Below are positions 42,221 to 45,516 of a DNA stretch of 57,371 nt, in pieces. The stretch lies in NCBI GenBank assembly GCA_015488325.1, contig WFOA01000025.1, positions 1 to 57,371 of the forward strand, in the 5' to 3' direction. Position 1 is the first letter of the stretch, and every line of letters begins with the position of its first letter. Position numbers and translations under genes: made by a program. This stretch comes from Acidimicrobiia bacterium. Lineage in GTDB: Bacteria > Actinomycetota > Acidimicrobiia > Spongiisociales > ZC4RG35. The notes under the pieces are model-generated. The model was not told the DNA's origin. It saw nothing but the letters and a program-made list of their open reading frames with translations, and made no database searches.

Positions 42221-42583
42221 TCAGGCGAAGCTGTTGCCGCAGCCGCAGGTGCGGGTGACGTTCGGGTTGTCGATGGCGAACCCCGCACCCATGAGACCGT
42301 CGCGGTAGTCGAGGGTGCTCCCCTGGATCTTCTCGGCGCTCTGCGGGTCGACCACGACCTTGACGCCTCCGAACTCGACCACCCGGTCGTCCTCTTCGAT
42401 CTCCGAATCGAAGAACATCTCGTAGGAGAACCCCGAACATCCGCCCGGACGCACCGCCATCCGCAGCGCCAACGTCGGGTCCCCTTCCGCCTCGAGCAGC
42501 TCCCGGAGCTTGTTGACGGCGGCGTCGGTGACGGTGACCACCGGTCGGGCCTTGGAGGGTTTGATCGAGACGATCTGGGACAT
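42221..42583 (-). CDS. erpA: A-type iron-sulfur carrier/insertion protein (ErpA/IscA family)
   Basis: A 120-residue HesB/IscA-like protein with the three cluster ligands Cys49 (VRPGGCSGFSY), Cys113 and Cys115 (TCGCGNSF). It hands 4Fe-4S or 2Fe-2S clusters to apo-enzymes. It is divergent from the Mrp gene, also an Fe-S carrier. Only a weak ribosome site is seen. The symbol erpA is by similarity; IscA/SufA cannot be excluded. Confidence 0.9.
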   Translation of the reverse strand: MSQIVSIKPSKARPVVTVTDAAVNKLRELLEAEGDPTLALRMAVRPGGCSGFSYEMFFDSEIEEDDRVVEFGGVKVVVDPQSAEKIQGSTLDYRDGLMGAGFAIDNPNVTRTCGCGNSFA

Positions 42584-42616
42584 GTTCGCTCTTGGCTTTC
42601 GCTCTCGGTCCGCTTT

Positions 42617-42634
42617 GTCCGGATCTATCCGGAC
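42617..42634. promoter_or_regulatory. 18-bp palindrome at the inferred start of the erpA transcript
   Basis: GTCCGGAT (42617-42624) and ATCCGGAC (42627-42634) are perfect inverted arms around CT. TTGTCT and TATCAT (42641-42646) on the minus strand, 16 bp apart, form a promoter whose start would be near 42634, exactly at this palindrome. An operator or 5' hairpin is likely. Confidence 0.6.
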
Positions 42635-42668
42635 GTCCGCATGATACCCGCCGCACCGCCGAAGACAA

Positions 42669-42699
42669 TTGACACTATGGGAATAGTGGAAATTAGAGT
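42669..42699 (+). promoter_or_regulatory. mrp promoter with palindrome between -35 and -10
   Basis: TTGACA (42669-42674) and TAGAGT (42694-42699) are 19 bp apart, and the start falls at ATG 42706, leaderless. CACTAT (42673-42678) and ATAGTG (42683-42688) form a perfect inverted repeat with a 4-nt spacer inside the promoter. The AT-rich surroundings contrast with the rest of the window. A repressor site is likely. Confidence 0.6.
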
Positions 42700-42705
42700 C
42701 GTGGC

Positions 42706-43845
42706 ATGGCCACCCGTGACGACGTCCTCGCCGCCCTCCGCGGCGTCCGCGACCCCGAACTCGGCGCCGACGTCGTCGAGCTGGGCATGGTGAAACACGT
42801 CGAGGTCGCGCCCAACGGCCGCGTCGAGATCGGACTCGCGCTCACCATCGCCGAATGCCCCCTCCGGGGCCAGATCACCGACGACGTGAAGCGACGGGTC
42901 CGCGCCCTGCCCGGGGTGACCGACGTGGCGATCACCACCTCTGCCATGAGCGCCGACGAACGAGCCAACCTCATGTCGGTCGCCCGGCGACGGGCACGCG
43001 AACACGCCCGCCCGACCCAGGTCTCGCCCACCACCAGGGTGGCGGCGATCGCCTCCGGCAAAGGCGGCGTCGGCAAGTCGTCGATCAGCGCCAACCTGGC
43101 GGTCGCCCTCGCCCGACGGAGCTTCCGGGTCGGGCTCCTCGACGCCGACATCTGGGGGTTCTCCCTCCCCAGGATCCTGGGGGTGTCCGACCGGCTGCAC
43201 GCCGACGACGAGACCCGACTCATCGTCCCCGCACAGGTCCACGACCTGAAGCTCGTCTCCACCGGACTCATCGCCGAGAGCGAAGACACCGCGCTGATGT
43301 GGCGGGGGCTCATGCTGTCCAAAGCCCTCGAGCAGTTCCTCACCCAGGTGGACTGGGGCGACCTCGACTATCTCGTGATCGACATGCCGCCGGGCACCGG
43401 CGATGTCCAGATGGCGCTTTCTCGGATGCTCCCCCAGGCGGAGATGGTGGTCGTCACCACCCCCCAGGTGGCCGCCCAGAAGGTGGCGATGCGGGTCGCC
43501 GACATGGCCCGGCGTTCCCACATGCCGGTGATCGGGGTCATCGAGAACATGAGCTGGTTCGAATGCAGCCACGGCGAACGGTTCACTCTCTTCGGTGAAG
43601 GGGGCGGAGAGGCGCTGGCGGAGGAGCTAGCGGTGCCCCTGATCGGACGGATCCCCATCGACCCCGCCGTCGTCGCCTCGGGAGATCACGGCCGCCCCGT
43701 CGTCCTCGGCGCAGGACCCGCCGCCGAAGCCCTCTCCGCCGCCGCCGAACGGCTCGTCGAGCTCCTGCCTCCCGCCGCCGAAGAGACCTGCACGGGGCGG
43801 CTCGCCCGACTCTTCGACCACCTGGAGCAGACGAGCGCTGGGTAA
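42706..43845 (+). CDS. mrp: Mrp/ApbC/NBP35-family Fe-S carrier ATPase
   Basis: A 379-residue protein. The N-terminal MIP18/DUF59 domain (1-85: VLAALRGVRDPELGADVVELGMV, with Cys51) is followed by the ParA/MinD-like ATPase with the deviant P-loop IASGKGGVGKSS (115-126), DADIWG, and DYLVIDMPPGTGD. It loads or transfers Fe-S clusters in the cytoplasm. It is divergent from the A-type carrier, with a leaderless promoter carrying a palindrome. Confidence 0.93.
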   Translation: MATRDDVLAALRGVRDPELGADVVELGMVKHVEVAPNGRVEIGLALTIAECPLRGQITDDVKRRVRALPGVTDVAITTSAMSADERANLMSVARRRAREHARPTQVSPTTRVAAIASGKGGVGKSSISANLAVALARRSFRVGLLDADIWGFSLPRILGVSDRLHADDETRLIVPAQVHDLKLVSTGLIAESEDTALMWRGLMLSKALEQFLTQVDWGDLDYLVIDMPPGTGDVQMALSRMLPQAEMVVVTTPQVAAQKVAMRVADMARRSHMPVIGVIENMSWFECSHGERFTLFGEGGGEALAEELAVPLIGRIPIDPAVVASGDHGRPVVLGAGPAAEALSAAAERLVELLPPAAEETCTGRLARLFDHLEQTSAG

Positions 43846-43953
43846 CTAGTCACTTGGGGGGAAAAGAAATCAGCCCATGCCTTCTGGGCCCGATCGGCCG
43901 AAGATAGAAGGGAACGTGCCTCGACGAAGTGGCTGGGAGGCTATCTTTCGAAG

Positions 43954-44037
43954 GGCTTCGGGGTGCCGGAATCCCCCTTGACGGACCCCGATTCGCACGA
44001 GGGCCTGAATCCCCCGCAGGCCCTCGTGCTTCGTTTC
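43954..44037 (+). ncRNA. Candidate 6C-like small RNA
   Basis: Two adjacent hairpins present C-rich loops. Hairpin 1 spans 43959-43990: stem CGGGGT/ACCCCG with a CCG/CGG inner stem, and loop GAATCCCCCTTGA. Hairpin 2 spans 43995-44029: a perfect 13-bp stem, loop AATCCCCCG. Both loops contain AATCCCCC. A T-rich tail (TTCGTTTC) follows, as in an intrinsic terminator. Paired hairpins with C-run loops define the actinobacterial 6C RNA; here the runs are five C rather than six, so it is divergent or only similar. TATCTT at 43942-43947 may be its -10, giving a start near 43954. It lies in the 190-bp gap between convergent mrp and MBL genes. Confidence 0.6.
43995..44037 (+). terminator. Intrinsic terminator, second hairpin of the 6C-like RNA
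   Basis: 13-bp GC-rich stem (43995-44007 with 44017-44029), 9-nt loop, then TTCGTTTC. The tail reaches 2 nt into the stop codon of the convergent MBL-fold gene. It may also end the mrp transcript. Confidence 0.75.
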
Positions 44038-44821
44038 AGGGTGCCGCCGGAGAGACGGCGGCGTCCCAGTCTCCGTCCCCACCGCCGCCGAAGCGCACCC
44101 GGCCGTCGGCCGCCAACTTCCGGAGGTGGGCGCAGACCGAACGGGCGGCCAAGGGCCACAACGCCCGGTCGACGTCGGCGTAGACGACCTCGACCACCTG
44201 GCCCACCGTCCGGGCCCCCGACTCCACCGCCGCCAGGATCTCCTGCTCACGCTGACGCCGATGCGCCAGATACCACGAGATCACCTCCCGGGGACGGTCG
44301 ATCTCCGGACCGTGGCCCGGATACAGACGGCGCAACTCCATGCCCCGAAGCCGCTCCAGAGAACGGAGGTAGGCGGCGACGTCGTCCACCATCACCGACG
44401 AACCCCCCATGATGTGGTCGCCGGTGAACAGAACGTCCCCGAGGCGAAGACACAGGTGGTCGTCGGCATGGCCCGGCGTGTGGACGGCCTCCAACTCCCC
44501 GGCCCCGACCCGAACGGTCGAACCGTCGGCCAACACGACGTCGGGGTCGAACTCCGGCCCGGGTGCGTACCCGAACGCTGGACAGCCAAGCTCCCGGGCG
44601 AGGGGATTGGCGAGGGGCGCATGGTCGGGGTGGGTGTGGGTGACCACCACCGCCGCCGCCCGACGGTCGCCCAACGCGTCGACGATGGCCCGGCGATGAC
44701 CCGCATCGACCGGCCCCGGGTCGATCACCGCGACCTCGCCGTCGACCTCCAACAGGTAGGTGTTGGTGCCGGGCCCGGTGAACGGCCCTGGGTTGGGGGC
44801 GAGAATCCGCTCGACCCTCAC
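44036..44821 (-). CDS. MBL-fold metallo-hydrolase (LACTB2-like)
   Basis: A 261-residue metallo-beta-lactamase-fold protein with THTHPDH metal motif, GPGTNTYLLEVDGEVAVIDPGPV, HTPGHADDHLC, FTGDHIMGGSS and YPGHGPEI. A C-terminal winged-helix-like segment (AHLRKLAADGRVRF) is typical of the LACTB2/RNase-like group. GTG 44821 overlaps the Nudix stop (GTGA) and follows GGAGG. It may be a nuclease or a thioester hydrolase; the substrate is not determined. Confidence 0.9.
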   Translation of the reverse strand: MRVERILAPNPGPFTGPGTNTYLLEVDGEVAVIDPGPVDAGHRRAIVDALGDRRAAAVVVTHTHPDHAPLANPLARELGCPAFGYAPGPEFDPDVVLADGSTVRVGAGELEAVHTPGHADDHLCLRLGDVLFTGDHIMGGSSVMVDDVAAYLRSLERLRGMELRRLYPGHGPEIDRPREVISWYLAHRRQREQEILAAVESGARTVGQVVEVVYADVDRALWPLAARSVCAHLRKLAADGRVRFGGGGDGDWDAAVSPAAP

Positions 44822-45516
44822 TCCGCCTCCTCGTAGTCGGGATCCCCGGGGAGGACCGCCCGCACCTCCGATCCGGACCGCACCAGCCGGGGGATGGTCT
44901 GGTCGCGGCTGGCAGCGGCGACCATGCCCCGGACCGCATCGCCCGCGTCGTCGAAGGCGGCGAGACGCTCCAGATGCACCCGTGTCGGCAGCACGATCCC
45001 CCAATGAGAAGCCTGTGCACGGGCCAGCGCATCGCCCGGGCGGATCCAGACCGGGTCGGCCAGCTCACCGGTCAAGGCCTTCGGGGGAGGGAGGTCGTCG
45101 CCCCGGGCGACGAAGAAACGGGTGTCGAACCTCCGAGGTGCCCCCTCCGGGGTGACCCAGTTCGAGACGAAGGAGATCCGATCGAGGTCGAAGGCCGCTC
45201 CGGCATCGGCGAGCGCCTCGAACAGCTCCCATCCGGTCGCGCCCACCGCCGCCTCCGGCACCTCGCCGACGGCCAGGAACAACCCCACCTCCTCGGCGGT
45301 CTCCCGCACCGCGGCGAGCTGGAAGGGACGGTCGAGCTCGGAGCCGCCCACCGCCGGAACGTCGGGCCGGCGGTCGAGGTCCTCCACCAACCCGCCGGGG
45401 AAGACATGGACACCCCCGAACGCCGCCCGGTTGGACCGGCGCCCCAGCAGCACCTCGGGGCCTCGACGTCCGTCCCGCACCAGGATGAGGGTGGCCGCCG
45501 GTACCGGAACCGTCAC
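44818..45516 (-). CDS. Nudix hydrolase with interrupted Nudix box
   Basis: A 232-residue protein. GGVHVFPGGLVEDLD begins the Nudix region and the RETAEEVGL signature follows about 20 residues later than in the compact box, so an insert is present, as in the NUDT19/RP2p group. Hydrolysis of a nucleoside diphosphate derivative such as CoA is plausible. GTG 45516 overlaps the fxsA stop (GTGA). In a three-gene operon fxsA-nudix-MBL. Confidence 0.88.
   Translation of the reverse strand: MTVPVPAATLILVRDGRRGPEVLLGRRSNRAAFGGVHVFPGGLVEDLDRRPDVPAVGGSELDRPFQLAAVRETAEEVGLFLAVGEVPEAAVGATGWELFEALADAGAAFDLDRISFVSNWVTPEGAPRRFDTRFFVARGDDLPPPKALTGELADPVWIRPGDALARAQASHWGIVLPTRVHLERLAAFDDAGDAVRGMVAAASRDQTIPRLVRSGSEVRAVLPGDPDYEEAE

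Follow-up and report, generated by a model that had tools for sequence, protein, structure and literature searches.

Introduction

Few actinobacterial small RNAs have a worked-out mode of action, and the C-loop RNAs of the 6C type belong to these; we know of no Hfq in the phylum. The loops of 6C RNAs typically have at least six C each (PMC4046766). In the mycobacterial representative, B11, G tracts at ribosome sites are the pairing partners of the loops, and an mRNA whose leader holds a G6 tract is repressed by either C loop, repression being lost only when both are mutated (PMC10470900).

The DNA analysed here, a stretch of 57,371 nucleotides (the window), comes from an uncultured member of the Acidimicrobiia, a class on which a literature search found no small-RNA work. 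An earlier note on this DNA had described a small RNA resembling the actinobacterial 6C RNA but with five C. Its two-hairpin architecture stands, whereas membership in 6C does not: the RNA, called C5 RNA below, is not a 6C member by the covariance-model test. The conserved structured small-RNA gene at this site is best described as that of a new C-loop small RNA, one that probably works like 6C. We describe below the locus, its conservation, and the readings that compete for it.

The locus and its C-loop hairpins

The hairpin region is intergenic, lying between the end of mrp (43845) and that of a convergent hydrolase gene (44036), whose stop codon adjoins the presumed 3' end of the small RNA and whose start codon is uncertain, positions up to 45004 being possible (open reading frame 44036..45004). 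The features are as follows.

42706..43845, plus strand: mrp, encoding an ApbC/NUBPL-type Fe-S cluster carrier ATPase (Pfam PF10609, E=9.5e-85; FeS_assembly_P, PF01883); upstream neighbour, same strand as the RNA
43842..43853, no strand: palindrome GTAACTAGTCAC (family consensus GTGACTAGTCAC; TGACTAGTCA-type), overlapping the mrp stop codon; likely regulator site, its centre 63 bases upstream of the 5' box
43903..43908, plus strand: GATAGA, putative -10 element, proposed from by-eye comparison with GATACT, GATAAT and GACAAT in relatives
43912..43920, plus strand: GAACGTGCC box, at the predicted 5' end of the RNA; invariant, conserved in ~30 genomes of the order
43929..43944, plus strand: small hairpin GTGGCT-GGGA-GGCTAT; its loop, GGGA, is of GNRA type and 100% open in the predicted fold
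43958-43991, plus strand: hairpin 1, TCGGGGTgCCG-GAATCCCCCTTGA-CGGACCCCGA; 10 bp with one bulge; loop GAATCCCCCTTGA; C run at 43973-43977
43995-44029, plus strand: hairpin 2, terminator-like, GCACGAGGGCCTG-AATCCCCCG-CAGGCCCTCGTGC; 13 bp without mismatch; loop AATCCCCCG; C run at 44011-44015
44030..44037, plus strand: TTCGTTTC, a T-rich tail where the RNA presumably ends; TTTT-type tails occur on the same strand in several relatives
44036..44953, minus strand: metallo-beta-lactamase-fold hydrolase with a BLACT_WH domain (PF00753, PF17778); convergent neighbour

In the window at 42221-43845, mrp and a HesB/IscA-type gene form a divergent pair of Fe-S genes whose adjacency is conserved across many genomes of the order, the HesB start lying ~120 bases from mrp.

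Two consecutive stable hairpins with five-C loops had been read from the letters alone, and both bear scrutiny: UCCCCC is exposed in the open loop of each, and the C runs are 98-100% unpaired in the predicted fold of 43912-44035. Folding z-scores are -2.2 for hairpin 1, -7.2 for hairpin 2 folded alone, an exceptional stability for its composition, and -4.05 for both together. Across 787 kb of the source genome (the window plus 20 stretches, both strands counted), single hairpins of at least 9 bp with C5-8 in the loop number 62, and exactly one adjacent pair of C-loop hairpins occurs, at 43958-44029. Other details of the earlier description need qualification. The proposed terminator tail, though rich in T, is short and went uncalled in a scan for consensus terminators. 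The matching octamer AATCCCCC is indeed present in both loops but is local to the genus, plus one loop of G005, and across nine species it is UCCCCC that is kept. The interval first taken for the whole RNA, 43954-44037, does contain the C-loop hairpins but is only its 3' half; the 5' half and the putative promoter, the most widely conserved parts, had been missed.

Conservation and covariation

A BLAST search of 60 genomes with 136 bases of the locus gave matches at E<=1e-5 in six further genomes of the family, downstream of mrp wherever mrp was located on the same contig. With mrp orthologs as a synteny anchor for comparing relatives, a larger unit emerges, arranged in the order palindrome GTGACTAGTCAC, -10-like GATAnT, GAACGTGCC, GGGA hairpin and terminator hairpin, and located near mrp in four families of the order, ~30 genomes in all. 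The stem that flanks GGGA differs in sequence in most relatives, and G005 and G025 are without a clear GGGA hairpin. The next gene after the unit varies, being a convergent M23 peptidase gene, a convergent hydrolase gene or a co-directional HesB gene. Since the same layout recurs in ~30 genomes with different downstream genes, the unit is not the leader of one operon.

C-loop hairpins are confined to nine genomes of one family (G000, G001, G004, G005, G009, G015, G016, G019 and G025), and many relatives keep the unit at the mrp locus without any C loops. Within the nine, stems and loop flanks vary. Hairpin 1 has a C loop in eight of them, each time with UCCCCC, whereas G005 lacks it and keeps a C loop in the terminator hairpin only; hairpin 2 has CCCCC in every one of the nine. 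Five C is the count in most members, six being found in two single loops (hairpin 1 of G009, hairpin 2 of G025). The stems covary in relatives, where a lack of such support was to count against the reading of the earlier note: both sides have changed at 8 of the 23 base pairs in the nine-sequence alignment (4 of 10 pairs in hairpin 1, 4 of 13 in hairpin 2), against shuffle means of 2.2-2.6 and with 0 of 500 shuffles as high. Two alignments were used, of which the second was fitted to the model and the first was not, and 87-92% of cells pair, versus less than 50% for slid versions of the structure. Run on 395 genomes of the class, a covariance model built solely from the nine C5 RNAs (R1) retrieves these nine and no others at E<1e-9; across the phylum it gives weak matches alone (E>=0.001), not recognised as orthologues. 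A tree of Mrp, made to date the gain of the C loops, neither supports nor rules out one origin.

Relation to 6C and to the C6 RNAs of the class

The C5 RNA might be a true diverged 6C orthologue (RF01066) whose C runs have shrunk from six to five, and it does have the same architecture of two consecutive C-loop hairpins, the second terminator-like by both folds and covariation. The Rfam 6C model, the comparison suggested at the outset, is nonetheless silent at the site (no match at E<=10) and in the eight C5 relatives (none at E<=1), and the loops at the site hold five C each rather than six or more. Elsewhere in the source genome no 6C match lies above the cut-off, those seen having E>=0.5 and the best three not being C-loop pairs. 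The gathering score of 47 bits is reached by none of 296 genomes of the class, which does contain several near-threshold two-hairpin C6 RNAs, one of 46.2 bits in G198. The best R1 matches beyond the family are likewise two-hairpin C6 RNAs, from other families of the class (L152-L155, E 7.8e-7 to 7.6e-4), and one of them scores 40.9 bits with the 6C model, which speaks for orthology. Against it, these C6 RNAs, judged 6C-like by eye, are at other loci without mrp, HesB or hydrolase genes nearby, no GAACGTGCC module was seen adjoining them, and many relatives have no C loops at the very mrp locus where the C5 RNA is found. The architecture is thus common to C5 RNA and the C6 RNAs of the class, and common ancestry is possible, while descent from 6C proper appears unlikely.

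Further C-loop elements came to light in these comparisons. L154 (~1440-1578) and L173 (~1467-1572) have three or four consecutive C6 hairpins, versus two in 6C, and stay under the Rfam 6C cut-off. At L156 1501-1586, in G249 (another family of the same order), lies a two-hairpin, RNA-like element whose loops are C6 in one case and C5 in the other; a search of the same 3 kb for mrp, HesB and the hydrolase gene found none of them. In family f75, elsewhere in the phylum, a conserved element like CCTGAGGTATCCCCTGAATCCCCATAGG...GGCCCCGTTCCCCCTGCGGGGCC, with no Rfam match over threshold, recurs near 1501-1580 in L217 and L219-L227 and is perhaps another C-loop small RNA.

Target search

Pairing of the loops with G-rich targets at ribosome sites, as first proposed, found no echo in the source genome: 0 of the 58 other GGGGGATT sites fall in predicted translation-initiation regions, gene starts having been called by a home-made predictor that may have missed some. 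All sites together comprise 28 antisense to predicted genes, 18 within them and 14 intergenic, two of the last being the RNA's own complement. GGGGGA is not enriched at starts relative to gene interiors (ratio 0.94), nor is GGGGGA(TT) at translation starts, which is still compatible with a handful of targets. Comparison of GGGGGA with G012, which has no C loops, is uninformative, GC content being unequal (0.685 versus 0.60). Since starts are not enriched, the targets may be few or bound through shorter pairing, or the loops may have another role.

One such other role would be the binding of a protein, by the C loops or the GGGA hairpin, so that a regulator is titrated as by a CsrB-type sponge. 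Besides the lack of start-codon enrichment, this reading draws on the pattern of conservation: it is GAACGUGCC and GGGA, rather than the C loops, that are most widely kept among the unpaired parts. No actinobacterial protein of such specificity is evident, however, and the precedent for actinobacterial C-loop RNAs is mRNA pairing (PMC10470900); we regard a sponge as distinctly unlikely.

Putative promoter region and relation to mrp

The hairpins follow immediately after mrp and share its strand, hairpin 2 resembles a terminator, and a promoter scan called no sigma70 consensus at the locus, all of which would suit a terminator region of mrp, that is, a 3' UTR with extra hairpins and no function of its own. 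Such a region would require neither hairpin 1 nor conserved UCCCCC loops to terminate transcription. Moreover, the unit has its own palindrome, -10-like element and 5' box at a fixed spacing, the distance from palindrome centre to GAACGTGCC being 62-68 bases, mostly 63-64, in 28 genomes. It is also separable from mrp, lying on the opposite strand in G019, where the 5' box has drifted, and several hundred bases away in G012, G013, G014 and G016. A role confined to ending mrp transcripts is, on this evidence, improbable. A leaderless micro-ORF starting at the GTG of GAACGTGCC, which opens a 21-codon frame in the source genome (MPRRSGWEAIFRRASGCRNPP), is highly improbable and was rejected, its frame not being conserved: it stops after three codons in G015, G025 and G004 (GTGCTCGGGTAA, GTGCTTGGGTAG, GTGCCCGGATAA), and the GCTGGGAG box shifts frame between species.

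A position ~63 bases upstream is that of a class I activator, and because the palindrome sits at about -63 and the -35 region is poor, the layout suggests an activator-dependent promoter. Elsewhere the TGACTAGTCA palindrome is rare, recurring at C97:4383 in G000 (L131), C6:34301 in G012 (L130), C19:27133 in G009 (L138) and C24:76 in G044 (L134); it stands upstream of secreted- or surface-protein genes, which in G000 and G012 code for homologous secreted proteins and begin ~60-85 bases from it, and in G009 of a flagellin-type gene. These recurrences could mark the shared regulon of a dimeric regulator and, as secreted-protein and flagellin-type genes are among those preceded, the RNA may be part of a surface or lifestyle regulon, a weak lead. 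The degenerate pattern GAACGTGC..GCTGGGA, sought class-wide, gives matches outside the mrp locus that are mostly chance.

Proposed mode of action and significance

The DNA layout, its conservation and the covarying hairpins are observed. Because the module recurs whatever gene follows, and C5 loops occur in nine genomes only, the reading we favour, with a probability of roughly 0.6, is an independent small-RNA gene of ~120 nt (~43912-44035, plus strand) between mrp and the convergent hydrolase gene, acting in trans via its C loops. Transcription would start near GAACGTGCC from a weak promoter, aided by a dimeric regulator bound to the TGACTAGTCA palindrome ~63 bases upstream, and would end at hairpin 2. 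Each UCCCCC loop would then pair with G-rich stretches in target mRNAs. As is reported for mycobacterial 6C/B11, the two loops would probably be redundant and need no Hfq-like chaperone. By analogy, such pairing is the most likely function of the loops, since paired open UCCCCC loops are kept through changes in the stems. The 5' module (GAACGUGCC and GGGA hairpin), being more widely shared, must on this reading have a role independent of the C loops, which many relatives lack.

In a broader reading, to which we give about even odds, this is an uncatalogued small-RNA family of one order of Acidimicrobiia, defined by the TGACTAGTCA site, the GAACGUGCC box and the GGGA hairpin near mrp, in which paired UCCCCC loops were gained by one lineage (or lost by the others), with the outcome that an unrelated RNA backbone acquired, or retained, a 6C-like function. 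If true, this would show the design to recur, in a separate RNA of another class whose backbone differs but whose paired C loops are the same. The C5 RNA adds a family absent from Rfam 15, and its natural variants, with or without C loops and with five or six C, could be used to assign functions to its parts.

Comparison with known C-loop RNAs

The families ar14 (RF02344) and CcsR1 (RF02791) resemble the C5 RNA in their C-rich single-stranded loops but are not among the matches of its hairpins: CcsR1 touches just the DNA immediately downstream of them (E=0.54), and both match the C6 RNA L152, from another family, at sub-threshold scores. The best Rfam match is to ar7 (RF02342), an Alphaproteobacteria family likewise with C-run loops on two hairpins, at 37.2 bits versus a gathering score of 60; it recurs in the relatives L035, L008 and L032 (36.5, 30.6 and 28.2 bits). 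The first two hairpins align, while the third of the model lands within the coding sequence of the convergent hydrolase. With every score below threshold, ar7 was rejected as the true family, and the likeness is likely one of convergent architecture.

The closest counterpart remains 6C (mycobacterial B11, C. glutamicum cgb_03605), an actinobacterial RNA of ~100 nt with two consecutive C-run-loop hairpins (PMC4046766), whose pairing of C loops with G tracts (PMC10470900) is the mode proposed for the C5 RNA. The C5 RNA differs in having five C versus six or more, in being unseen by the 6C covariance model, and in adding a 5' module of GAACGUGCC and GGGA hairpin, linkage to mrp and an upstream TGACTAGTCA palindrome; unlike 6C, it has relatives that keep the rest of the unit without the C loops.
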